IMG/VR virus record: IMGVR_UViG_3300030389_001881
Location: 1 to 34,583 of that record
Source: a virus
DNA: 34,583 nucleotides
Reading direction: 5' to 3' (one strand)
Position numbers and translations under genes: made by a program. The notes below the pieces were generated by a model. The model saw only the letters and a list, made by a program, of their open reading frames with translations. It was not told the DNA's origin and ran no database searches. Shown here piece after piece: positions 306 through 34,583 of this stretch (positions are counted from its first letter, which is position 1; every line of letters starts with the position of its first letter).

Positions 306-444
306 TGTGGGTTTTTATGGGATTTTTGACGCAAGCAGCGCGGGTAATCTTTTGATACATGGCGCTCTAGCATCAGCCAAAACAATTCAATCCGGCGACA
401 TTTTGAAGATCAACGCAGGTGACTTAGACATTACGGCTGACTGA
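58..444 (+). CDS. Conserved phage structural protein, SDYAEN family
   Basis: 128 residues. It opens with SALSDYAENKLLDHVLGTT and later has WGSVGFYGIFDA and a closing INAGDLDIT segment. These are hallmarks of a small beta-rich protein common in phage tail and fibre regions; its exact role is unknown to me. GGAG sits 8 bases before the ATG. It follows the adaptor gene by two bases and precedes a fibre gene, so a role in tail or fibre assembly is likely. A partial second copy at the right contig end encodes identical residues over the shared 82 codons. Confidence 0.8.
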   Translation: MSALSDYAENKLLDHVLGTTSFTAPSAVYVGLSTGSFGDDNSGTELTGNNYSRVAVTFDAASSGATDNAGAIEFAAATGNWGSVGFYGIFDASSAGNLLIHGALASAKTIQSGDILKINAGDLDITAD

Positions 445-452
445 GGCGCAAG

Positions 453-2132
453 ATGGCACTTGTATTAAAAGATCGAATCAAAGAAACGACCAGCACAACA
501 GGCACCGGAACATATACGCTTGCAGGTGCTGTAACCGGGTTTGAGGCGTTTTCTGAAATTGGTGACGGCAATACCACTTATTACTGTTGTACGGATGGCA
601 CCGACTTTGAAGTGGGTGTCGGCACCTACACGGCGTCTGGCACGACGCTTGCGCGCACGACTATTTTGCAGTCAAGCAACAGCGATGCGGCGGTTAACTG
701 GACCGCAGGCACGCGAAACATTTTCTGCACCCAACCAGCGGAAAAAGCAGTGTTTCTTGATGCCTCTGGAAACATCACGATCCCCGGCACAATTGATGGC
801 CGTGACTTGCAGACTGATGGCACTAAGCTTGACGGCATTGAAGCCAGCGCAACCGCAGACCAGACAGCCGCAGAGATTAGGGCGCTGGTTGAAAGTGCCT
901 CTGATAGCAATGTATTTACTGACGCTGATCACAGTAAGCTTGACGGCATTGAAGCAAGTGCCACCGCTGATCAAACTGCAAGTGAAATACGTGCACTTGT
1001 TGAAAGCGCCAGTGACAGTAACGTCTTTACGGATGCTGACCACACAAAGCTAAATGGCATTGAAACCAGTGCTGATGTAACTGACACCACAAACGTCGTC
1101 GCTGCCCTAACGGCAGGGACCAACATTACAATCGCGGTTGATGGCACGATTTCAGCTACTGGCTCAAGCGGTCTTGCAAATGTTGTCGAAGACACCACGC
1201 CTCAACTGGGCGGCACGCTTGATGCGAACAGTCAGTTGATACAATTCGGCGACAGTTCCGGCGCTACAGTGAACAGATTGCAGCTTGGCGACAGCCAAGA
1301 CCTTAGCCTGTATCACAATGGAAATTCGCAGGTTAACCACAATGGAACCGGCGACCTCTATATAAGCAGCAACAACAACACCATTTTCTATAACTCTGGC
1401 TTTTCAAAAATCAACATTCAGGATGGCAGCAGCGGCGGGGTCAAGCTTTACTATGGCAACGCCACACTGACTGCCGAAACAACAAGCGAAGGTCTGGATG
1501 TCCAAACTGGTATCATCAATGTCAAAAATGGCGGGACGCAGTCGGAAGTCCGGTTATTTTGCGAAAGCTCGAATGCACATTATGCGGGTTTGAAGGCACC
1601 AGCCCATTCAGAATTCAGCGGCGATGTCACCTCAACGCTTCCTGCTGCTACCGGTATCCTTTTAGGCACTGCTAATTCAGACGCTCCCGCTACGACTACA
1701 AGCTCATCCGATGCGGATCATGTCCTGGTCAATGACGGCGGCGTCTTGAAAAAAATCACGCCAGCTAACCTCGGCATAGGTGGCGGCGGCGGTGGCGGTG
1801 GATCGTTCCTGCCGCTGTCAGGCGGCACACTAACCGGCGACCTGACACTCGGTGGCGCGCTGGTCGAAGAGGTGTACAACCTTACAGGCACGGTCCTCGA
1901 CCCATCCAATGGAACGCTCCAATATAAAACGTTGGCGGCAAATACCACGTTCACTGAAACGTTTTCTGACGGAGAGTCCATCACGCTGATGATTGACGAT
2001 GGCTCGGCCTACACGGTCACTTGGCCGACGATGACCTGGGCTTCAGGCTCTGCCCCAACTTTAGCGACCAGCGGCTACACAACCGTCGTGTTGTGGCATC
2101 AAGGTAGTCTATACGGCGCAGTGGCAAGCTAA
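453..2132 (+). CDS. Tail fibre protein with tandem repeats
   Basis: 559 residues. The N-terminal 110 residues (VLKDRIKETTSTTGTGTYTL, IGDGNTTYYCC, TYTASGTTLARTT) match a virion-attachment domain frequent in marine phage fibres. Residues about 125-198 hold two full 37-residue repeats plus the start of a third (KLDGIEASATADQT...), probably fibrous stalk. Near residue 445 is a run of eight glycines followed by FLPLSGGTLTGDLTLGG, a common fibre stalk motif. The C-terminal 90 residues form a beta-rich domain often seen at fibre ends. Its stop overlaps the next ATG by one base (TAATG). Likely receptor binding, on the virion surface. Confidence 0.85.
   Translation: MALVLKDRIKETTSTTGTGTYTLAGAVTGFEAFSEIGDGNTTYYCCTDGTDFEVGVGTYTASGTTLARTTILQSSNSDAAVNWTAGTRNIFCTQPAEKAVFLDASGNITIPGTIDGRDLQTDGTKLDGIEASATADQTAAEIRALVESASDSNVFTDADHSKLDGIEASATADQTASEIRALVESASDSNVFTDADHTKLNGIETSADVTDTTNVVAALTAGTNITIAVDGTISATGSSGLANVVEDTTPQLGGTLDANSQLIQFGDSSGATVNRLQLGDSQDLSLYHNGNSQVNHNGTGDLYISSNNNTIFYNSGFSKINIQDGSSGGVKLYYGNATLTAETTSEGLDVQTGIINVKNGGTQSEVRLFCESSNAHYAGLKAPAHSEFSGDVTSTLPAATGILLGTANSDAPATTTSSSDADHVLVNDGGVLKKITPANLGIGGGGGGGGSFLPLSGGTLTGDLTLGGALVEEVYNLTGTVLDPSNGTLQYKTLAANTTFTETFSDGESITLMIDDGSAYTVTWPTMTWASGSAPTLATSGYTTVVLWHQGSLYGAVAS
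825..1080 (+). repeat. 111-bp tandem repeats in the fibre gene
   Basis: Units start at 825, 936 and 1047 (third partial). Each encodes KLDGIEASATADQT... and ends at FTDADH. Exact 111-base spacing keeps the frame, so unit number can change without breaking the protein. Confidence 0.9.
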
Positions 2133-2782
2133 TGTTAAGCCGCAAAATACTTTTAGCAGGTCAAGGCGCTGGCGGCGGTGGTGGCGGCGGTGGTGGCGGA
2201 ACGGGCCAATATTACGGCTACACCTCGACTGCAACCGCAACGAATGGCCCTGCGGGCCCCGGCCTTGTCAATACGTGGTATCGCCGTGAACTAATTGCTT
2301 TTGTTTACACAAGCTCCGAGCTTTCAACGCTTGGTCTAAGTGCGAATGACGTCATTACCAAACTGCGCTGGAATGTGACTCAAATTCCACTTTCAAATCG
2401 TATGCCTTTTCCTAACTACGCGATCAGGATGAGCCACATTTCCTCTGCAACAAATACGAGCAATCCTTCAGGGGCATCGACCGGCGCTAACAGAACCACA
2501 GTCAAAAATCAGCACAACTATAACGCTTACACGCCCGGCACTGGTTTGCATGAGATGACGCTCGACAACAGTTTCACTTGGAATGGTAGCGACGGCATCG
2601 GTTTCGTGTTCGCTTGGGGACAATGCCCCACAGGCTACGACCAAAAGGGTCAACAAACTGTACTAACGACCGGCAACACTTATTACAAATGGAGTGATCA
2701 GCCCGGCACTTACACGGTTGATGAGTCAACAACTTCGACCATCAGTAATAAAAGACCAGCCATCGACCTGTTCGCCACTTAG
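2132..2782 (+). CDS. Putative fibre-tip or receptor-binding protein with poly-Gly N-terminus
   Basis: 216 residues. It begins MLSRKILLAGQGA followed by a run of ten glycines, then a single beta-rich domain (YRRELIAFVYTSSELSTLGL, PNYAIRMSHISSATNTS, GIGFVFAWGQC). I do not recognise a named family. Start and stop overlap with the preceding fibre gene (TAATG) indicates translational coupling. Position between a fibre gene and a tail assembly chaperone suggests a host-recognition module; the glycine run would act as a flexible hinge. Function is inferred from context only. Confidence 0.7.
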   Translation: MLSRKILLAGQGAGGGGGGGGGGTGQYYGYTSTATATNGPAGPGLVNTWYRRELIAFVYTSSELSTLGLSANDVITKLRWNVTQIPLSNRMPFPNYAIRMSHISSATNTSNPSGASTGANRTTVKNQHNYNAYTPGTGLHEMTLDNSFTWNGSDGIGFVFAWGQCPTGYDQKGQQTVLTTGNTYYKWSDQPGTYTVDESTTSTISNKRPAIDLFAT

Positions 2783-2791
2783 GAGTTTTGA

Positions 2792-3220
2792 ATGTACGCA
2801 AAAATCACGGACGGTGCGGTGGCAGCCTATCCCTACACCGTCGCCCTTTTGAAAGCAGACCATCCAAACACAAGTTTCCCCGACACGATGACTGATGCAA
2901 TGCTTCAAGCGCATGGGATGTACTTGGTGGCTTCATCTTCACAACCTGATCACGATGCGGCATTGCAGTATGTTGAGGAAGCCACGCCAACGCTCGTCAA
3001 TGGAGCCTGGACGCAGACGTGGCAAGTCAAAAACTACGAGCTGTCAATTCAACAGCGCAACGTGCGGCAGGAGCGTGACAAGCTGCTGTTTGAGACAGAT
3101 TATCTTGCACTGTCGGACACAACGCTTTCGGCTGAAATGGCTGCTTACCGGCAGGCACTGCGTGATGTCCCGGCACAATCTGGGTTTCCCGCGTCTGTTA
3201 CATGGCCGACTAAGCCATGA
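2792..3220 (+). CDS. Tail assembly chaperone-like protein (Phage_tail_APC type)
   Basis: 142 residues. The C-terminal half has the signature order RDKLLFETDYLALSDTTL, then YRQALRDVP, then SGFPASVTWP, typical of the Phage_tail_APC family found beside fibre genes. Such proteins are thought to help fold or assemble tail fibres. The strong AGGAG lies 6 bases before the ATG. The stop overlaps the next start by four bases (ATGA). Confidence 0.85.
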   Translation: MYAKITDGAVAAYPYTVALLKADHPNTSFPDTMTDAMLQAHGMYLVASSSQPDHDAALQYVEEATPTLVNGAWTQTWQVKNYELSIQQRNVRQERDKLLFETDYLALSDTTLSAEMAAYRQALRDVPAQSGFPASVTWPTKP

Positions 3221-3510
3221 TCTCAACCTTTGCATTTGGCGAGGAGCCGTTTGCCGCAGATAGTGTTGGCGTTGTTCAATTTGCCAGCGCCGTGGCCAAT
3301 ATAGTGGTCACCTCTTCTGCCACCGCCAAAGCTGTTTTTTTAACCAGTGGTTCAGCAAGTATTTCAATCAGCCAAAGTGCCGTTGCCAACGTGCTTGGTG
3401 ATGCTTGGACGATTGTTCCAGAGGGTTCCGAAACTTGGTCAATTATATCGCAAGGCAGCGAAACATGGACGCCTGTTTCACCGGGTGATGAAACGTGGAG
3501 TAAACAATGA
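3217..3510 (+). CDS. Small tail-region protein with ETW repeats
   Basis: 97 residues, unknown function. The last 35 residues carry three spaced repeats: GSETWSIIS, GSETWTPVS, GDETWSKQ. Short Trp-containing repeats of this kind recur in small proteins of marine phage tail clusters. It overlaps both neighbours by ATGA junctions, so it is translated as part of the tail operon. Confidence 0.7.
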   Translation: MISTFAFGEEPFAADSVGVVQFASAVANIVVTSSATAKAVFLTSGSASISISQSAVANVLGDAWTIVPEGSETWSIISQGSETWTPVSPGDETWSKQ

Positions 3511-4991
3511 TTCCATTCGGCGAATGGCTACCAGATCAGCCGCCTCTTAATAATCCTGGCGTGACCATTGCCACGAATGTGATTCCGGCTGCGAAAGGCT
3601 ATCGAAGCGTTAAAAACTTTGTTGATTTCAGCAATGCTGCCAGCGGCAGGCTGCGTGGCATTTTCAGTGCAAAAGACACGGACGGCAATTCGTTTTTGTT
3701 CGCTGGTGATAACGCAAAACTTTATCGCTACAGCGATTCTGACAAAGACTTGGACGACGTATCAAAGGCGGGTTCGCCTGCATATGACCTTGCTAACAGC
3801 GGAACAAGCACAGGCGACGAGCGGTGGCGGTTTGTGCAGTTTGGAAGCACGGTCATTGCCGCAGGCGGTATTGGTGAGGAGCTACAAAAGTGGACGCTTG
3901 GCAGCGACAGCACGTTTTCCAATCTCGCAGGCACACCGCCAAAAGCTGATTTCATTGCAGTGGTCAGGGACCAAGTATGGACTGCAAACATAGATGAAGG
4001 CTCTGGTCGCAAACCATTCCGCGTCAGGTGGTCGGCCATCAATGATGAAACATCGTGGACGGTCGGCACTAACCAAGCTGACTTTCAAGACATCTTCGGC
4101 GGCGACAGCGGTGCAATTACTGGTTTAGTTGGCGGGCAGCAAGCGACAATCCTTATGGAGCGCGGCATTGCCGTTGCGTATTACGTTGGATCACCGTTGA
4201 TCTATCAGATTGACCTAGTGGAAACATCACGCGGCTGTCCGTATCCCAACAGCATCGCAAGCGTTGGCAACAATGTGTTCTATCTTAGCCGTGACGGCTT
4301 CTTCATGTTTGATGGGCGCGGTTCTAAGCCTATCGGTGCAGAAAAGGTAGACGACTTTTTTAACAAGGATTTTAACTCTGCAAAGATCGACAAATGCTCG
4401 TGCGCTGTTGACCCAATCAATCAGATCGTCGCGTGGAGCTATGTAAGCAATGACAACGTGGGCGACACGCCTGACAAGGTCATAGTCTACAACTACGCAA
4501 TCGGTCGGTGGTCATTACTTGAGTTGACGACAGAGTTGCTTGCGCCAATACAAACAACCTCTGTGACTATGGAAGCATTGGATACACAGGCGGCAAACCT
4601 TGATGCACTTACAGGCACACTCGACTCGACGACATACAAGGGCGGCACGTTTTTCTTTGGCGGTTCAGCCGACAATAAAATCAAAGCGTTCTCCGGCACT
4701 GCGCTGGCTGGCACGATTGAAACGCCAGAGGTTTCGGTAAACAAAGGCCGTCATTCGGTAGTCACAAAGACAGTGCCTTATTTCAAGGATGGCAGTGTCA
4801 CAATTCAAGTTGGCACGCGCGACCGGCAGGATGAGGTTGTGAGCTTCGGCAGTGCATCCTCATTGCTTGCAGACGGCTATTGTCTGCACCGCGATCAGGG
4901 ACGGTTTCATCGCTTTCGGATGAACATCAGCGGCACTTGGGACTTTGCGCAAGGCGTCGATGTAGAGGGTGCGGCTCTTGGCCGACGCTAA
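3507..4991 (+). CDS. Tail nozzle or stabilisation-type protein
   Basis: 494 residues, beta-rich throughout. It opens with PFGEWLPDQPPLNNPGV and ATNVIPAAKGYRSV, a start typical of a large podovirus family that sits where P22 gp10 or T7 gp12 lies. Repeating patterns such as RWRFVQFGSTVIAAGG, NNVFYLSRDGFFMFDG and VIVYNYAIGRWS suggest beta-propeller blades. It probably closes the portal channel and forms the distal tail tube. ATGA overlap with the gene before. Family placement rests on pattern and position. Confidence 0.75.
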   Translation: MIPFGEWLPDQPPLNNPGVTIATNVIPAAKGYRSVKNFVDFSNAASGRLRGIFSAKDTDGNSFLFAGDNAKLYRYSDSDKDLDDVSKAGSPAYDLANSGTSTGDERWRFVQFGSTVIAAGGIGEELQKWTLGSDSTFSNLAGTPPKADFIAVVRDQVWTANIDEGSGRKPFRVRWSAINDETSWTVGTNQADFQDIFGGDSGAITGLVGGQQATILMERGIAVAYYVGSPLIYQIDLVETSRGCPYPNSIASVGNNVFYLSRDGFFMFDGRGSKPIGAEKVDDFFNKDFNSAKIDKCSCAVDPINQIVAWSYVSNDNVGDTPDKVIVYNYAIGRWSLLELTTELLAPIQTTSVTMEALDTQAANLDALTGTLDSTTYKGGTFFFGGSADNKIKAFSGTALAGTIETPEVSVNKGRHSVVTKTVPYFKDGSVTIQVGTRDRQDEVVSFGSASSLLADGYCLHRDQGRFHRFRMNISGTWDFAQGVDVEGAALGRR

Positions 4992-12173: not shown

Positions 12174-12290
12174 GGTATGACACAGGGTATGACAAAAGTT
12201 TGTAACCCACTGAATTATATATAAATTAATGGCGGAGAGGGTGCCAAAGAAATACATATAAAACAGTAGGTTAGTTTTAGTTTGTCATAC
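12173..12290. other. Candidate attP: integrase arm sites flanking a tRNA-Ser-like core
   Basis: The core TGGCGGAGAGGGTGCC (12230-12245) is the reverse complement of GGCACCCTCTCCGCCA, which has the shape of a tRNA-Ser 3' end including CCA. On one side are two direct copies of GGGTATGACA (12173-12182, 12185-12194). On the other is an inverted copy, TTTGTCATAC (12281-12290), matching GTATGACAAA at 12187-12196. Core plus arm-type repeats next to an integrase gene is the usual attP plan. The stretch between is AT-rich and holds no gene. Confidence 0.75.
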
Positions 12291-13325
12291 TTTATAAGTC
12301 ACGTCGGACGCATAAGCCCGCTTGGCATATTCACGGGCGTCAACACGATAGTCAGGATGAATTTGGGCATAGTGCTGTTCAGTGATTTTCACCGTTGAAT
12401 GACCCAGCGCATCGCGGATCTGTTCCATCGGTACGCCGTCCAAAGCTGCACCAGCCGCCCACGTTGAGCGAAGATCGTGGAACCTGAAATTCACCAGTTC
12501 TAAGCCGTTACACATTGCCTTAAACTCTGTGTGTATATCTCGCAACGCGTTGCCATTTTTCTCTATGATATGGCCTGTCTGTGAGGCATTGAACGCCTCT
12601 CGCAGCCACGGCTCCACCATCCCGGTGATATCGCACACCCGTCTGGCTTTACGCTTCCTGCCGTCAGCGGGGGCATGAAAGTCAATCTGACCTTCCCCCC
12701 ATTTGATCTGATGCTTTTGAAGCTCAAGTATCGCAGACTTGCGTGCCGCAGTAGATATTGCAATGCCAACGGCAAGGCGCAGATACAACGGTTGCCGGGG
12801 CAACGCCTGTAGCAGCCGAGTACGTTCTTCTGTATCCAGCCATCTAATACGCGCGACCTTCTGATACCTGTTCTTCGGTATGTAAGGCACACCGCGTATC
12901 ATCCTTCCCCGCTCACGATCAGCAGCCCAATTTATAGCTGCAATCAACACCGCGAGTTCGCGCGCCATTGTCACCTCTGACACGTTTGCCAGCCGGTCCT
13001 GCTTCCATTCATACACCGCGTCTTCAAAGCTTGCATGATCTAGTGGGTTGCTTTCGTATAGCGGCTCTAACTTTTTCAGAATGGAATTGTGGCGCAACAT
13101 TGAGACTGCACGCGGCTCATAATCACGCTTGGTGTATTGATGCAAAATTTCACCTACATTCACATACTCGCGGGGGGCTTGAATCCGCTTGAATGTCTCT
13201 AGGAATGTCTCTGCAAGCGTCTCATCTGGCGTGCCAGTTGAAGCCCATCTTTGCTGCCCGTTCTCCACCCAGTATATGTGCCAGGTGTTTCTGCCTTTCC
13301 TGCGTTTAAGCTGGTAGTTGTGCAT
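12285..13325 (-). CDS. int: Tyrosine recombinase, phage integrase
   Basis: 346 residues. Integrates and excises the phage genome by site-specific recombination. N-terminal arm-binding part (YQLKRRKGRNTWHIYWVENG) and SAM-like core-binding region (about 55-150), then the catalytic domain with Arg195 (STAARKSAILEL), a Lys near 226, His283 and Arg286 (FHDLRSTWA), His309 (LGHSTVKITEQHY) and nucleophile Tyr319. All catalytic residues are present, so it looks active. Its 3' end touches the candidate attP. A GAGGGA ribosome site lies about 8 bases before the ATG. The 5' end overlaps the excisionase gene by 127 bases. Confidence 0.93.
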   Translation of the reverse strand: MHNYQLKRRKGRNTWHIYWVENGQQRWASTGTPDETLAETFLETFKRIQAPREYVNVGEILHQYTKRDYEPRAVSMLRHNSILKKLEPLYESNPLDHASFEDAVYEWKQDRLANVSEVTMARELAVLIAAINWAADRERGRMIRGVPYIPKNRYQKVARIRWLDTEERTRLLQALPRQPLYLRLAVGIAISTAARKSAILELQKHQIKWGEGQIDFHAPADGRKRKARRVCDITGMVEPWLREAFNASQTGHIIEKNGNALRDIHTEFKAMCNGLELVNFRFHDLRSTWAAGAALDGVPMEQIRDALGHSTVKITEQHYAQIHPDYRVDAREYAKRAYASDVTYKV

Positions 13326-27367: not shown

Positions 27368-29362
27368 ATGGATAACGAGGCACTTGGCAGCATCGTATCA
27401 GGTGAGATCACTGATGCGCTGAACCACTACGATCAGGAGTTCTCCGCCAAACGCATAAAGGCGCTCGATTTCTACCTTGGCGAACCTTTAGGCAATGAGG
27501 TTGATGGCAAAAGTCAGGTCATTTCGCAGGACTTTGCCGACACTGTAGAGACCATTATACCCTCGCTTATGCGCATATTTACAGCGAGTGATAAGTATGT
27601 GCGATTTGCGGCGCGCACTGCCGAGGATGAGCCACGCGCAGACCAAGCAAGCGACTATGTGAATTACATCATCAATCACGACAACCCCGGTTTCCGCATC
27701 TTCTCGCACTGGTTCCGCGATAGCCTGATGTACGGCCTGGGTGTGGTGAAATACTACTATGACGACACCACCACGGTTGAGGAAGCAGAGTACGAAAACC
27801 TGACCGAGGGGGAGATCGCGCTGCTACTGGCAAACCCTGATGTGGAGTTGATCAGCCAGCGTGAGAACATGACCACGATCATCGGTGACGATGGTGAAGA
27901 TGTTGAGGTGGTCGAGAGCTACAACCTCAAACTGAGGATTAAGAAAACAAGCGGGCGCATCAGGATTGAGAATGTGCCGCCGGAAGAGTTTATGTTCAAC
28001 CGGCGCGCCAAATCCTTGGAAGATGCGCGGTTTATCTGCCATCGCACGATGATGACGGTCAGTGACCTTGTGTCGATGGGCTACGATCAGGATGAAATCG
28101 AGACATATGCTGGCTATCCGCAGCTTGAGGTAGAGCAAGAGCGTCAGGTGCGCTTTGGCGACATTGAGAGTGGCACGGAAACAGCGCCATCAGATCCCTC
28201 ACAGCGAGAGGTGGCCGTCTATGACACGGTTATGCTGGTGGATTTTGATGATGATGGCGTGGCAGAGCGTCGGCGCATCCTGTCGATAGGCGATAGTGGC
28301 AGTTACATCCTTGAGAATGAGGTGACTGACAACATCCCCTTTGCTGTCATCTCGCCGATTATGATGCCTCACAGGCTTGTTGGCCGGTCGATTTTTGATC
28401 TGACCGAGGATTTGCAAGTCATCAAGTCCACGCTGATGCGGCAATATCTGGATTCGACTTATCTGACGGTCAATCCGCGCACTATCGCTGTTGAAGGCAT
28501 GGTCAACTTTGATGATTTGCTCGACAGCACGGCGGGCGGCATTGTGCGAGTACGCCAGCCGGGGGCGGTGCAAACCCTGTCAGGCCAAGGTGTAGGCGGC
28601 GAGGTTCAGCCGTTGATGCGCTATCTGGACGAGGTCAAGGAAAGCCGCACGGGCATGTCCAAAGCCTCACAGGGCTTGGATGCAAACGCGCTGCAATCGA
28701 CCACGGCAAGTGCTGTAGCGGCTACGGTGCGTGGGGCGCAGGCCAAGCTTGAGGCATATGCGAGAAGCTTTGCCGAGACAGGTGTAAAGGATCTCTTTCG
28801 TGGCATCTTGAAGCTTGTCGCTGACTTTCAACAGCAAGAGCGGATTGTGCGTCTGCGGAACACTTATGTTCCTGTGGACCCGCGTGAGTTTGACAGCGAG
28901 TTTGACGTGATCGTCAATGTCGGGCTTGGCACGGCAGACGATGAACAGAAGATTGCGTTCATCCAAGCGATGATGGCCGAGGGCAAGACGATCATCAGCC
29001 AGCTAGGGCCGGACAATCCGTTGTGCAGCCTGTCGCAATACGCTGCGATGTTGCAGGAAATCGTTGAGATTGGCGGGTTTAAGGACACAGCGCGGTTCTT
29101 TGGCACGCCGCAGACTGTAAGTCAGGCACAAGCTGCACAGGCGCAGCAAGCCCAGCAACAGGCTAACGATCCAGAGATGATGCGTATTCAGCAAGAGTTT
29201 GAACTGAAGCGGTTTGAGGCAGAGCAAGAAATCGCTCTCAAGCGTGAGAAGATGGCCGCAGAGCTAGAGCTACGTCGCCAGGAGTTGGCCGCAGAGGCAG
29301 AGCTTAGAGTGCGGGCCGCTGCCGCCGGTTCTTCCATCAGCACAAACTTACCGCGCGCATGA
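27368..29362 (+). CDS. Portal protein
   Basis: 664 residues from ATG 27368 (AGGTGAG 5 bases upstream; GTG 27359 is an alternative). Forms the twelve-fold ring at one capsid vertex for DNA entry and exit. Typical parts: QVISQDFADTVETIIPSLMR, DQASDYVNYIINHDNPGFRI, FVAG-like wing region with RIENVPPEEFMFNRRAKSLE, VGRSIFDLTEDLQVIKSTLM, and QYLDSTYLTVNPRTIAVEG. The last 90 residues are a long Gln/Glu/Lys coiled coil (QEFELKRFEAEQEIALKREK). P22-like portal by size and order. Downstream gene overlaps by ATGA. Confidence 0.85.
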   Translation: MDNEALGSIVSGEITDALNHYDQEFSAKRIKALDFYLGEPLGNEVDGKSQVISQDFADTVETIIPSLMRIFTASDKYVRFAARTAEDEPRADQASDYVNYIINHDNPGFRIFSHWFRDSLMYGLGVVKYYYDDTTTVEEAEYENLTEGEIALLLANPDVELISQRENMTTIIGDDGEDVEVVESYNLKLRIKKTSGRIRIENVPPEEFMFNRRAKSLEDARFICHRTMMTVSDLVSMGYDQDEIETYAGYPQLEVEQERQVRFGDIESGTETAPSDPSQREVAVYDTVMLVDFDDDGVAERRRILSIGDSGSYILENEVTDNIPFAVISPIMMPHRLVGRSIFDLTEDLQVIKSTLMRQYLDSTYLTVNPRTIAVEGMVNFDDLLDSTAGGIVRVRQPGAVQTLSGQGVGGEVQPLMRYLDEVKESRTGMSKASQGLDANALQSTTASAVAATVRGAQAKLEAYARSFAETGVKDLFRGILKLVADFQQQERIVRLRNTYVPVDPREFDSEFDVIVNVGLGTADDEQKIAFIQAMMAEGKTIISQLGPDNPLCSLSQYAAMLQEIVEIGGFKDTARFFGTPQTVSQAQAAQAQQAQQQANDPEMMRIQQEFELKRFEAEQEIALKREKMAAELELRRQELAAEAELRVRAAAAGSSISTNLPRA

Positions 29363-29760
29363 TTTCGTTTGGCGATCTTTGCCAGTTTTTAGCCACGTCT
29401 AACACCTACGAAGATTGGACGATGGCGCGTCTTAAGCGTCAGTTTATCAAGCCTATGAGCTTGAAGCAGTCACTGGCGTTTCAGAGAGATGGCCGCATGG
29501 TGGGGTTTGCCACATGGGCATTTGTTGGTGATGACATTCTGGTTGAGTTGTTGCGCGGTGAGCGTGCGGTAGCTCCGAGCGAGTGGAAATCGGGTGAGAA
29601 CATTTTCTTTGCAGATTTCATAGCGCCATACGGTGATACGCCGTGGATGGCGTTACAGCTACGCGCCAAGTTTGGTGACGAGTTAGGCAAGGGTGTTCGC
29701 GGGCATTACTACCGGCGAGAACGAGGTAGGGCAGGGCATGTTAGAGCAAAAGTTTCTTGA
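29359..29760 (+). CDS. HlyC-like lysine acyltransferase homologue
   Basis: 133 residues (HlyC has about 170). HlyC moves fatty acyl groups to lysines of RTX toxins. The similar parts here: SLAFQRDGRMVGFATWAFVG, SEWKSGENIFFADFIAPYGD, ALQLRAKFGDELGKGVR. Asp86 (FADFIAPYG) matches HlyC Asp92. The catalytic His23 of HlyC (PLHRDW) appears here as Tyr17 (NTYEDW). No RTX toxin gene is seen. Located between portal and a structural gene, so a virion or assembly protein may be the substrate, or the enzyme may be inactive. Recognition by eye. Confidence 0.7.
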   Translation: MISFGDLCQFLATSNTYEDWTMARLKRQFIKPMSLKQSLAFQRDGRMVGFATWAFVGDDILVELLRGERAVAPSEWKSGENIFFADFIAPYGDTPWMALQLRAKFGDELGKGVRGHYYRRERGRAGHVRAKVS

Positions 29761-31051
29761 CCGATTTGGCATGGAGCGGCGCATACAGTCGCGCCTGTTC
29801 TGCTTTGGCAGCGGTGCAGATGACGTTAGCGATGAGGATTTGGACGAAAATTTGCAACAAGACATTGCGGCGGCGGCTGTCCAACAGTCAGGCGGCAACG
29901 TAGGAAATTTTTCGTTTTCTCCAAGTTTCGATAGAGACGACTTTGACAACCAGCGTCTTACTCAAGCAACCGCAGACATTTTGACCGCAGCAGCTACGGC
30001 ACCGCCGAGCCAGATGCAACAGGCTGTCAATACGGGAACGGCTTTCGCAGCACAAAGTCCCGGTGTGGCAGATGCACTGGTAAACGCAACGATGACACCG
30101 TTGCCGCCAGCGCCCAATGCGTCTTACTTTGGAGACTTAGCTGATGATCGAGCGTCAGTTTTCAATCTTGGTAACGTGTCCTCTGGAAGCTTCCCTTCAG
30201 CAATAACTGATTTGGGTGGTGAGGTTTTTGACACCACATCAGGCGATATAATTCCGTCAAAGGTATTGGGTTTTGACTATGACCCACGCGTGCCGCTGAT
30301 CCAGCCACTCCCCGCAGACCTTTTCGACATATCGCAAGTGCCGCCAGAACGGACAAATGCAGAGCGTTTCCGGCAGCAAGAATCAAACCGTGCGATGGGC
30401 CTAGACCAGAGACAGGCTGGTTTTGATGCCTATCAGGCTATGTTGAGTGATGCGGTTCGTGCTGGGCAACGAAATATAAATATGGCCACTCCCGGTCTAC
30501 TTGGCGACATCAGCAAATTTGCAAATCAAAAATTTGTTGACGCGATGAACACAAGGATTGGCCCGCGTGGGAGCGAGGCTTACGACTTGTTTCTTAGCGA
30601 CCAAAACCTGTTTTCCCCGGTCTACAATTCTGCGGGCCGTCTCACTGGTTATCGTGACCAGTTTGGCCGTCTGACCGGAACTGATCCAATCAATGAAACG
30701 ATGGATATGCAGGTTGAAAATGACACGGTTCCGCCTGTCATAAACCCGCTTACGGGCCGCAGTCAGTGTCCAGATGGTTATGTGTTTGACGAGGATTTGC
30801 AGGCGTGTCGGCTCAAGGGCAGAAGCAATGCAGGCAGAAGCAATGCAGGCACAAGCAATGATGGAAATTCCTCCGCTCCATCAGATCCAGGCGACATGTT
30901 CTACCGTCGCACGTCGCTGGACGATGCGCCTGCAAACCTTCCTAGCGGCTTTGATTTTGACGCTGCAAACCGTCAATTTACGCAAGGCTTTGCGGTGCGT
31001 CCGTCCTTTTTCCAGCGCCCACCTGACCTGACGGGTTTCACGCTTCTCTGA
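29738..31051 (+). CDS. Head-region structural protein of unknown function
   Basis: 437 residues from ATG 29738, preceded by AGGGCAGGGC. Acidic and Gln/Ala-rich, with disorder-prone parts (SGADDVSDEDLDENLQQDI), conserved-looking patches PRVPLIQPLPADLF and AGRLTGYRDQFGRLTG, and a short C...C segment CPDGYVFDEDLQAC that is common in structural proteins of marine podoviruses. A 15-base repeat encodes GRSNAGRSNAGTSNDG near residue 362. Probably a virion component between portal and scaffold. Confidence 0.55.
   Translation: MLEQKFLDRFGMERRIQSRLFCFGSGADDVSDEDLDENLQQDIAAAAVQQSGGNVGNFSFSPSFDRDDFDNQRLTQATADILTAAATAPPSQMQQAVNTGTAFAAQSPGVADALVNATMTPLPPAPNASYFGDLADDRASVFNLGNVSSGSFPSAITDLGGEVFDTTSGDIIPSKVLGFDYDPRVPLIQPLPADLFDISQVPPERTNAERFRQQESNRAMGLDQRQAGFDAYQAMLSDAVRAGQRNINMATPGLLGDISKFANQKFVDAMNTRIGPRGSEAYDLFLSDQNLFSPVYNSAGRLTGYRDQFGRLTGTDPINETMDMQVENDTVPPVINPLTGRSQCPDGYVFDEDLQACRLKGRSNAGRSNAGTSNDGNSSAPSDPGDMFYRRTSLDDAPANLPSGFDFDAANRQFTQGFAVRPSFFQRPPDLTGFTLL
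30821..30865 (+). repeat. 15-bp tandem repeats
   Basis: AGAAGCAATGCAGGC at 30821-30835 and 30836-30850, with a third degenerate copy (ACAAGCAATGATGGA) to 30865. Encodes a short Ser/Asn/Gly linker; unit number can vary in frame. Confidence 0.85.
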
Positions 31052-31317
31052 TGGCAGGTGCAAACTGGCGGGACGACATAGATCGGGCAGCAAAGGCCGA
31101 AGCGTTTTTGCGTGAGCCGCTAGTGGTCGAGGCTTTTGAGAAGCTTGAGGCCGATTTCATTGATGCGTGGAAAAACACAGCCGTCGCGGACACAGAGAAC
31201 CGTGAGCGGATCTTTCATCTGTTGCAAGCACTGAACGCACTGCGCGGTCATTTCAAGACCGTGATTGAGAGCGGGAAGATTGCACAAGTTAATCTGGACA
31301 ACCAGCAAAGAGGTTAG
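31051..31317 (+). CDS. Small helical head protein
   Basis: 88 residues beginning MAGANWRDDIDRAAKAEAFL. Entirely helical by pattern (FEKLEADFIDAWKNTAVADT, ERIFHLLQALNALRGHFKTV). Genes of this size and style sit before scaffold genes in several podoviruses; role unknown. TGATG coupling with the preceding gene. Confidence 0.65.
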   Translation: MAGANWRDDIDRAAKAEAFLREPLVVEAFEKLEADFIDAWKNTAVADTENRERIFHLLQALNALRGHFKTVIESGKIAQVNLDNQQRG

Positions 31318-31322
31318 AAATT

Positions 31323-32345
31323 ATGGCTGACAATCCGCAAGGAACCAGCACGCAGCTTTCGTTTGCGGAAGCGCAGGGACTACTTATGACACCCCCGCCT
31401 GAAGCGGAAACGGTTAGTGAGGAAGCCCCAGAGGAGTTGATTGAAGATGATGCTCCAGAGCCTACCGAGGAAGAGACAACCGAGGACGAGGTAGAGGCAG
31501 AAGCTGAAACTGAGTTTGAGGAAGCCGACTCCGAGGAAGGTGATGTCGAAGACGAGGAAGACGCCGAAGGTGAGGACCAACAGCAACCGGAAATGATCTC
31601 CGTCACTGTAGATGGAGAGACATTTGAGGTGACGCTGGAGGAAGCTGCCAAAGGATATCAACGTCAGTCGGCTTTCACAAAAGGTATGCAGAAGAACGCT
31701 GAAGACCGCAAAGCCCTAGAGGCAGAGCGGGCGCAGACAGCGCAAGAGCGTGACGCATACCAGCAAGGACTGCGGCAGATTCACCAGTACCTGGAGCAAG
31801 CAAACGCTGAACCAGATTGGGATGAACTGCGAAAACAACTTCCGGCGGATGAATACGCTAGAAAATGGACTGACTACCAGCGTTTGGAAGAACGCAAGAA
31901 ACAGATCAGCGCAGAGAATGAGCGTATTAGTCAGCAACAGCAAGCCGAGCAAGTCGAGTTGTGGAAGACACATCTGGGCCAGCAATCGGAACTGATGCTA
32001 GACAAAATACCTCAATGGCGAGACGAAGGTGTTCGCCAGACAGAACGTGCTGAACTGATTGATTTTGCTGTGAAAGAGTATGGTTATACTCAAGAGGAAA
32101 TCAATCAGGCGTCAGACCATCGTGCCATTAAGGCGCTGTACGATTCATGGCAGTTGAGCAAGATCAGCGATCAAGCAAAGACTGCAAAGAAGAAGGTACG
32201 TGCAGCACCGAAAACACCAAAGGCTGGCACTCCCCGCACGAAGAAAGAAGTCCAAGCAAGTGCGCGGCGCAAGCGTCGTGCAGCGTTTGATAAAGCACCA
32301 AGCTTTAAGAACGCAGTCGATTATCTCATTCAATCTGGCAACTAA
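31323..32345 (+). CDS. Scaffolding protein
   Basis: 340 residues. The N-terminal 90 are extremely acidic (about half Glu/Asp), followed by MISVTVDGETFEVTLEEAAK and a long helical, charged Gln-rich coiled coil (ERAQTAQERDAYQQGLRQIH, ERKKQISAENERISQQQQAE), ending in a basic tail (SARRKRRAAF). This is the usual build of phage scaffolds that guide capsid assembly and then leave. It lies directly before the major capsid gene. Confidence 0.8.
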   Translation: MADNPQGTSTQLSFAEAQGLLMTPPPEAETVSEEAPEELIEDDAPEPTEEETTEDEVEAEAETEFEEADSEEGDVEDEEDAEGEDQQQPEMISVTVDGETFEVTLEEAAKGYQRQSAFTKGMQKNAEDRKALEAERAQTAQERDAYQQGLRQIHQYLEQANAEPDWDELRKQLPADEYARKWTDYQRLEERKKQISAENERISQQQQAEQVELWKTHLGQQSELMLDKIPQWRDEGVRQTERAELIDFAVKEYGYTQEEINQASDHRAIKALYDSWQLSKISDQAKTAKKKVRAAPKTPKAGTPRTKKEVQASARRKRRAAFDKAPSFKNAVDYLIQSGN

Positions 32346-32357
32346 AGGGAGGCCATT

Positions 32358-33311
32358 ATGGCAACCGCTACCACTGCTAATAGCGTGGGTGAAAGAGAGA
32401 CCCTTGCAGACATCATCTACAAAGTGGACTCTGATGAAACACCCATTTTTTCTTCCGTAGAGAAGGAAACCTCTACAGGCATCTTTACTGAATGGCAGGT
32501 GCAGGAACTCGCAAGTGCTGCAACTGACAACCATGTCAACGAAGGTGCTGACATGTCGGACACTGGTGTTACAGCTACTGTTCGCATGGGGAACTACCAT
32601 CAAATATCACAGAAGGGCTTCATCGTATCTAAAACATTAGATGCGGTTGACAAGGCCGGTCGTGATCGTGAAGTGGCCTACCAACGCGTACTGAAGGGAC
32701 TTGAGCTAAGGCGAGATGTAGAAAAGATGATTGGTGACACCAATGTCGCACGTTCTGCATCAGAGCCACGCAAGTCTGCATCGCTTCTGACGTGGATGAC
32801 AAACGGTGATAAGCCGTCTGACATGGCGTTCGCAACTGGCGATGGTACTGACACTGCTGATGTGACAGGCACTAACCACGCTTTGACACTTGCACGCATT
32901 GATACAGCGATGCAGCAAGCATGGTCAGATGGCGGCAATCCTTCACTCTTAGTATGTGATGCCACTAACCGCGCCAACATCTCTGATCTAACGCAGAGCG
33001 GCACCAATCTTGTCACCAACCAAGTCAATATGACTGAAGGTAAAGCGCCAACATTTGTTGGTTCGACGGCAGTATATCTAAACGACTTCGGCACGTTGGA
33101 TATCACGCCATCACGCTTTATCTCAAACGACAAGATCTTCTTGATTGATCCTAACTTTGTGTGCCTCTCCACACTTACTGGACGCAACTTCTCGGAGAAC
33201 GAGATTGGTTCCAGCGGTGACGCAGACAAAACGCAGATCATCATCGAATGGGCATTGAAGGTGAAGGCACCTAAATCCCACGCAGTCGTTTTTGGATTGA
33301 ACGGCAGCTAA
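32358..33311 (+). CDS. Major capsid protein, SU10/DUF5309 type
   Basis: 317 residues with a strong GGGAGG site. Parts typical of the SU10-type HK97-fold capsid: NSVGERETLADIIYKVDSDE, TPIFSSVEKE, GNYHQISQKGFIVSKTLDAV, EVAYQRVLKGLELRRDVEKM, LLVCDATNRANISDLT, and ITPSRFISNDKIFLIDPNFV. Builds the icosahedral shell. Followed by the only strong terminator in the late region, in line with very high expression. Confidence 0.92.
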   Translation: MATATTANSVGERETLADIIYKVDSDETPIFSSVEKETSTGIFTEWQVQELASAATDNHVNEGADMSDTGVTATVRMGNYHQISQKGFIVSKTLDAVDKAGRDREVAYQRVLKGLELRRDVEKMIGDTNVARSASEPRKSASLLTWMTNGDKPSDMAFATGDGTDTADVTGTNHALTLARIDTAMQQAWSDGGNPSLLVCDATNRANISDLTQSGTNLVTNQVNMTEGKAPTFVGSTAVYLNDFGTLDITPSRFISNDKIFLIDPNFVCLSTLTGRNFSENEIGSSGDADKTQIIIEWALKVKAPKSHAVVFGLNGS

Positions 33312-33334
33312 CACCTAACAACACAACGAGAAAG

Positions 33335-33359
33335 AGGGCGGCTTCGGTCGCCCTTTTTT
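33335..33359 (+). terminator. Rho-independent terminator with UUCG loop
   Basis: AGGGCGGC (33335-33342) pairs with GTCGCCCT (33347-33354) around TTCG, with one G-T pair, then a run of six T. Lies immediately after the major capsid gene; partial read-through would set lower levels for the tail genes. Confidence 0.9.
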
Positions 33360-33371
33360 ATTGGGGTGAAC

Positions 33372-33698
33372 ATGGCAAAACGTCTTCTCAAGTATGACCG
33401 TGAAGCTGGCAAAGAGGTCTGGATGCACGACAATCCAGAGGGCGGCTGGACGATAGAGCAGAAGCAGCATTTCAAGCATGTGCTGGAAAGTAACAAGCAA
33501 CAGCAAAACGCCTATCAGAAGGGATCTTTGCAGGGGAATACACAGGCGCACTGGCAGAAAGTCGCTGACATTCCAAACATTATTTATTTACAGCTAAGAG
33601 AAAAGTTTGGTGATCCACGCGACAACCCGAAGGCGTGGCGCAAATGGCTCAATGACTACGACAATCGTTACTTTAGATCGGGTGGTGGCAACATATGA
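33372..33698 (+). CDS. Conserved head or connector protein
   Basis: 108 residues from ATG 33372 with GGGGTGA 5 bases upstream. Starts MAKRLLKYDREAGKEVWMHD, and its end VADIPNIIYLQLREKFGDPR, RKWLNDYDNRYFRSGGG follows the pattern of a short family placed between capsid and adaptor genes in marine podoviruses. Function unknown. Ends with an ATGA overlap. Confidence 0.65.
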   Translation: MAKRLLKYDREAGKEVWMHDNPEGGWTIEQKQHFKHVLESNKQQQNAYQKGSLQGNTQAHWQKVADIPNIIYLQLREKFGDPRDNPKAWRKWLNDYDNRYFRSGGGNI

Positions 33699-34333
33699 GC
33701 ATCACGAACTACACAGAGCTAAAGACCGCAGTGGCTAACTTTCTAGCCAGGTCAGATCTTACTGACAGAATACCGGAGTTTATCAGTTTGGCTGAAGGCC
33801 GTCTGTCCCGTGAGCTTGAAAGTCGGTCACAGGAAAAACGTGCTAACGCAACCCTTACGGCAAATGACGAGTTTGTCGCGCTGCCAACGGATTTACGCGA
33901 GGTGCGGCACGTCAAGCTTCTCACAAGCCCTAACACGGTGCTTGAGTACAAGTCACCCGTCGCTCTGGAAAGTGAGTTTGGCGGCACTACTGGCAAGCCA
34001 CGCGCCTATACGATTGTAGGTGGCGAGATACAGTTTCGCCCGGTGCCAGATACCTCATACAACGCACAGATCATCTATGTGGGTTCTATATCTGCGTTGA
34101 GCGACAGCAACCTTGTCAACACGATCCTCACACGTCACCCCGACGCCTATCTTAGCGGTGCGCTCACAGAGGCGTACACGTACCTGATGGATGAGCAGCG
34201 TGCGCAAATCTATGACACGAAATTCACTCGCGCAATCGAAGAGATCAAGCGTGATGAAGAGAGGGCGCAGTACGGCACTGGCACCTTGCAAATGACCAGC
34301 ATTTACCAACGGCAAAACTCTGCTGGAGCTTAA
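33695..34333 (+). CDS. Phage head-tail adaptor protein (SU10 type)
   Basis: 212 residues. TNYTELKTAVANFLARSDLT, IPEFISLAEGRLSRELESR, FVALPTDLREVRHVKLL, RPVPDTSYNAQIIYVGSI, and LTRHPDAYLSGALTEAYTYL match the gp11-like adaptor that sits below the portal and joins it to the tail tube. Full length. The 3' end reappears at window positions 1-55, which closes the circle. Confidence 0.85.
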   Translation: MSITNYTELKTAVANFLARSDLTDRIPEFISLAEGRLSRELESRSQEKRANATLTANDEFVALPTDLREVRHVKLLTSPNTVLEYKSPVALESEFGGTTGKPRAYTIVGGEIQFRPVPDTSYNAQIIYVGSISALSDSNLVNTILTRHPDAYLSGALTEAYTYLMDEQRAQIYDTKFTRAIEEIKRDEERAQYGTGTLQMTSIYQRQNSAGA

Positions 34334-34583
34334 AAATGAGCGCGCTTAGTGATTACGCAGAAAACAAGCTCTTGGATCATGTGCTTGGCACTACATCATT
34401 CACTGCACCATCGGCTGTCTACGTAGGATTATCAACCGGCTCCTTCGGTGATGATAACAGCGGGACAGAACTCACTGGCAACAATTACTCGCGTGTGGCC
34501 GTCACCTTTGATGCGGCCTCTTCTGGTGCAACCGACAATGCAGGTGCAATCGAGTTCGCAGCGGCCACAGGGAATTGGGGAAG
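34279..34583. repeat. Terminal overlap, right copy
   Basis: Second copy of the 305-base end overlap, offset by 34,278 bases. The near but not perfect identity points to joining of two strain variants or to reads from different genomes, rather than to one clonal exact terminal repeat. Confidence 0.95.
34336..34583 (+). CDS. SDYAEN-family structural protein, 5' part (partial, cut by contig end)
   Basis: The first 82 codons of the gene fully seen at 58-444. All nine base differences from the first copy are synonymous third-position changes, so both sequences encode the same protein over this span. Confidence 0.9.
   Translation, partial: MSALSDYAENKLLDHVLGTTSFTAPSAVYVGLSTGSFGDDNSGTELTGNNYSRVAVTFDAASSGATDNAGAIEFAAATGNWG

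Follow-up and report, generated by a model that had tools for sequence, protein, structure and literature searches.

Two strain alleles very likely form the inexact end overlap of a genome-length phage contig

Results

Genes at the contig ends

The window, i.e., the whole stretch of DNA analysed here (34,583 bases), is a complete IMG/VR record that is classed as linear. Its two ends fall in neighboring genes of a structural operon, and the features needed to follow the analysis are the following:

1-34583, the window, whole IMG/VR record, classed linear; 52.3% GC, zero N
1-305, head copy of the overlap (putative strain variant A): 3′ 55 bases of gene U, 2-base spacer, 5′ 248 bases of gene X
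58-444, + strand, gene X, complete head copy, 128 aa, Gp80/GP4 fibre-I family (Pfam PF23140, E 3.2e-44; PHROG 240 head protein)
453-2132, + strand, tail-fibre-like gene after X, opening a variable cassette (PHROG 21412 tail fiber, E 1.6e-33)
12285-13325, - strand, tyrosine integrase gene
33695-34333, + strand, gene U, 212 aa, SU10-type adaptor (Pfam PF24175, E 1.2e-35; PHROG 2941 virion structural protein)
34279-34583, tail copy of the overlap (putative strain variant B); its final 77 bases (34507-34583) exactly match 229-305
34336-34583, + strand, second allele of gene X, 82 codons from the start, truncated at the contig end and encoding the same residues as the head copy

Gene X belongs to the fibre-I family with 150.8 bits against PF23140 (gathering cut-off 27), the match covering positions 1-128 of the 128 in the model. 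The structural operon runs in the order portal, scaffold, major head protein, adaptor (gene U), X and tail fibre, and since the overlap lies within U and X, in the middle of this operon, the contig ends represent an arbitrary cut and not natural genome ends. The presence of a tyrosine integrase suggests that the phage is probably temperate, and the location of this gene at ~12-13 kb indicates that the contig ends are unlikely to be prophage borders. Prophage attachment sites were considered as the cause of the repeat and rejected: the integrase is distant from either end, both ends cut into structural genes, and the search for tRNA genes gave none.

Nine silent mismatches

Self-comparison of the window gave a single strong off-diagonal match, between 1-305 and 34279-34583, with 97.05% identity (296/305 bases, nine mismatches, gapless, E 1.6e-146). 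Head and tail therefore match each other in the same orientation, as in a circular-mapping contig, with an end-to-end repeat that is inexact in a record that IMG/VR classes as linear. The mismatches (head positions 75, 123, 168, 171, 186, 189, 195, 204 and 228; six transitions and three transversions) all fall inside the gene X reading frame, at the third codon position, and are synonymous, so that both copies encode the same protein over 82 residues, while overlap bases 1-57, which cover the 3′ end of gene U and the spacer, do not differ between the copies. Self-comparison and the codon check of the nine sites thus confirm the original prediction of a ~97% end overlap with synonymous differences only.

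Contig ends frequently have poor support, and false mismatches created between two identical copies by base calling or assembly would be one explanation. Under random placement, the probability that 9/9 mutations hit third positions is ~4e-5, and that of an all-silent set, given six transitions and three transversions, is ~1e-5. These values indicate that the pattern results neither from chance nor from random error, and the earlier statement ruling out sequencing noise is borne out. In addition, relatives show both alleles at each of the nine sites, although only rarely at two, and an error origin is consequently regarded as extremely unlikely.

A predominance of third-position changes was also observed between other members of the group. 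Over all gene X pairs with at most 20 differences, 602 of 823 changes are at third positions, and this holds for every difference in the pairs L204/L205 (9/9) and L184/L189 (13/13). For gene U, the 143 residues that the relative L040 shares with the window in tblastn are identical, and the corresponding DNA, counted with its stop codon, shows 27 differences in 432 bases (23 at third positions); the single non-silent codon of this stretch is found at the gene end, outside the tblastn match. When the nine sites were compared with relatives, neither allele could be tied to one particular relative. Judging from these sequences, the silent-only divergence of gene X is usual between strains and reflects ordinary purifying selection. 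Adenine mutagenesis by a diversity-generating retroelement was rejected, since the differences are silent and mostly C/T.

Gene order in relatives

Gene U is followed by gene X after 5-38 bases in 190/190 fetched viral loci where both were measurable (some of these loci come from the same contigs), and no second copy of gene X was found in any fetched viral locus. Likewise, each of the 16 large relatives (28-37 kb) carries one U and one X, adjacent to each other, and a search for two gene X copies inside one relative's contig, away from its ends, found one X per tested record. The phage C72C1 (OQ984150), which is complete, circular and, with 34,944 bp, similar in length to the window, shares with it the adaptor-X order, the portal, the scaffold and the major head protein, with protein identities of 59.5% for U and 66.1% for X, and has one gene X and one U. 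It differs from the window by a large DNA divergence and by a gene after X that is far shorter than the fibre gene of the window; the literature search found no paper on this phage. Joining position 34278 to position 1 restores the U-X order that is continuous in the 190 loci, the 16 large records and C72C1, and the closed ring of ~34,278 bp is near the lengths of the relatives.

These observations bear on a second alternative offered by the original prediction, namely a true duplicated segment kept under selection. This would be a duplication, in tandem or at a distance, of the adaptor end and gene X within one genome, with both copies under purifying selection. The protein unchanged in both copies over 82 codons is what such a duplication would give, but silent-only differences are equally usual between strains. 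Moreover, a second X or U occurs in no relative, a duplication would make the window an exception in the whole group, and the copies sit exactly at the two contig ends, in register with closure of the ring at the conserved U-X junction. Given the single-copy, adjacent U and X of the relatives, a real duplication is unlikely and the ring closes at ~34,278 bp; overall, we consider the duplicated segment very improbable, and this part of the prediction was not supported. It is equally improbable that some genomes in the population carry two diverged copies of the adaptor end and fibre-I gene in the course of fibre-cassette exchange.

End overlaps in other contigs

Nine large relatives were read whole for end overlaps and break points. 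Their break points are scattered over one common circular gene map, and the ends overlap in five of the nine, inexactly in three. The inexact cases are G001 (~2.95 kb, made of an 89% and an 85% piece and containing an indel), G008 (92% identity over 354 bp, third positions accounting for 19 of the 28 mismatches) and G004 (~101 bp with one mismatch), whereas the overlaps of G005 (141 bp) and G009 (50 bp) are exact. As these overlaps lie at other places, inexact end overlap recurs through contig assembly and is not specific to gene X.

The same comparison bears on T7-like direct repeats at the physical ends of a linear genome, which would have diverged from each other. A few hundred bases would be a plausible length for repeats of this type, but copying renews them, and the two repeats of one genome are expected to be the same. 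The window also ends inside two structural genes, and the relatives break elsewhere with overlaps of different lengths, so that this explanation appears exceedingly improbable.

Discussion

Altogether, the sequence comparisons make it very likely that the overlap pairs two natural strain alleles, one at each end of a genome-length contig of a circular-mapping phage. The original prediction had proposed, as its first alternative, two natural variants of the same phage, and this proposal is supported by the single-copy gene order, by the inexact overlaps of other contigs and by the strain-like codon pattern. The genome would be podovirus-like, circular or circularly permuted and terminally redundant, with ~34,278 bp assembled over one round, and the sample would contain two or more close strains. 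The assembler would have left through the adaptor/fibre-I junction of one strain and, after a full turn, re-entered through that of the other, the contig halting where both strain paths rejoin, presumably at a k-mer branch. If the contig was assembled from the junction versions of two strains, the 305-base repeat represents two alleles of one locus and not two loci.

The lengths of the identical runs are partly consistent with such a stop. At the tail, the identical stretch beyond the final mismatch measures exactly 77 bases, although a tail run of at least 77 bases has P ~0.07 by chance. The head run has 74 bases, which leaves a clean k-mer signature at the tail alone. Terminal repeats of public viral contigs cluster at certain lengths, among them 55, 77 and 99 bp, for which assembler k-mers are the likely cause (PMC8116208), and De Bruijn assemblers can neither phase variants of this kind nor keep them apart, so that assemblies tend to break up at such sites (PMC11443906). 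Contigs of a sister strain were sought by matching the exact junction pattern to viral contigs and the tail-allele pattern to genome contigs; none was found among the records covered, from which those very near the window may have been missing.

The closest known case is that of short-read metagenome contigs with direct terminal repeats, described with CheckV, whose source is a circular or concatemeric viral genome (PMC8116208). The window shares with them an end repeat, a genome-length contig and, for its tail run, a common k-mer length, and differs by a repeat of 97% identity instead of 100%. Two strain alleles would account for this difference, and hence for tests based on exact repeats classing the record as linear. 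The end repeat is an ordinary assembly effect that is already understood. Assembly once round a circular-mapping genome implies that the genome is essentially complete, and thus a record classed as a linear fragment is in effect a full genome of ~34.28 kb, a finding of small practical value. More generally, exact-terminal-repeat tests overlook complete genomes where strains are mixed, and since five of the nine large relatives have overlapping ends, three of them inexact, a tolerance for mismatches would raise the number of complete phage genomes recovered.

The region downstream of gene X forms a variable tail-fibre cassette (444-3507), which extends to gene V (3507-4991). The X-to-V spacing is 3062 bp in the window and 563-4390 bp in relatives, and a 111-base tandem repeat (821-1072; 2.3 copies, 75% identity) lies within the tail-fibre gene at 453-2132. 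Relative to the window, L040 has ~100% protein identity in the adaptor but only 75% in X, which suggests an exchange border near the adaptor/X junction. In L167, identity to the window is 95.9% at 27957-29811, 86% at 30722-34318 and far lower in X, and this unevenness is a sign of mosaic recombination in the phage group.
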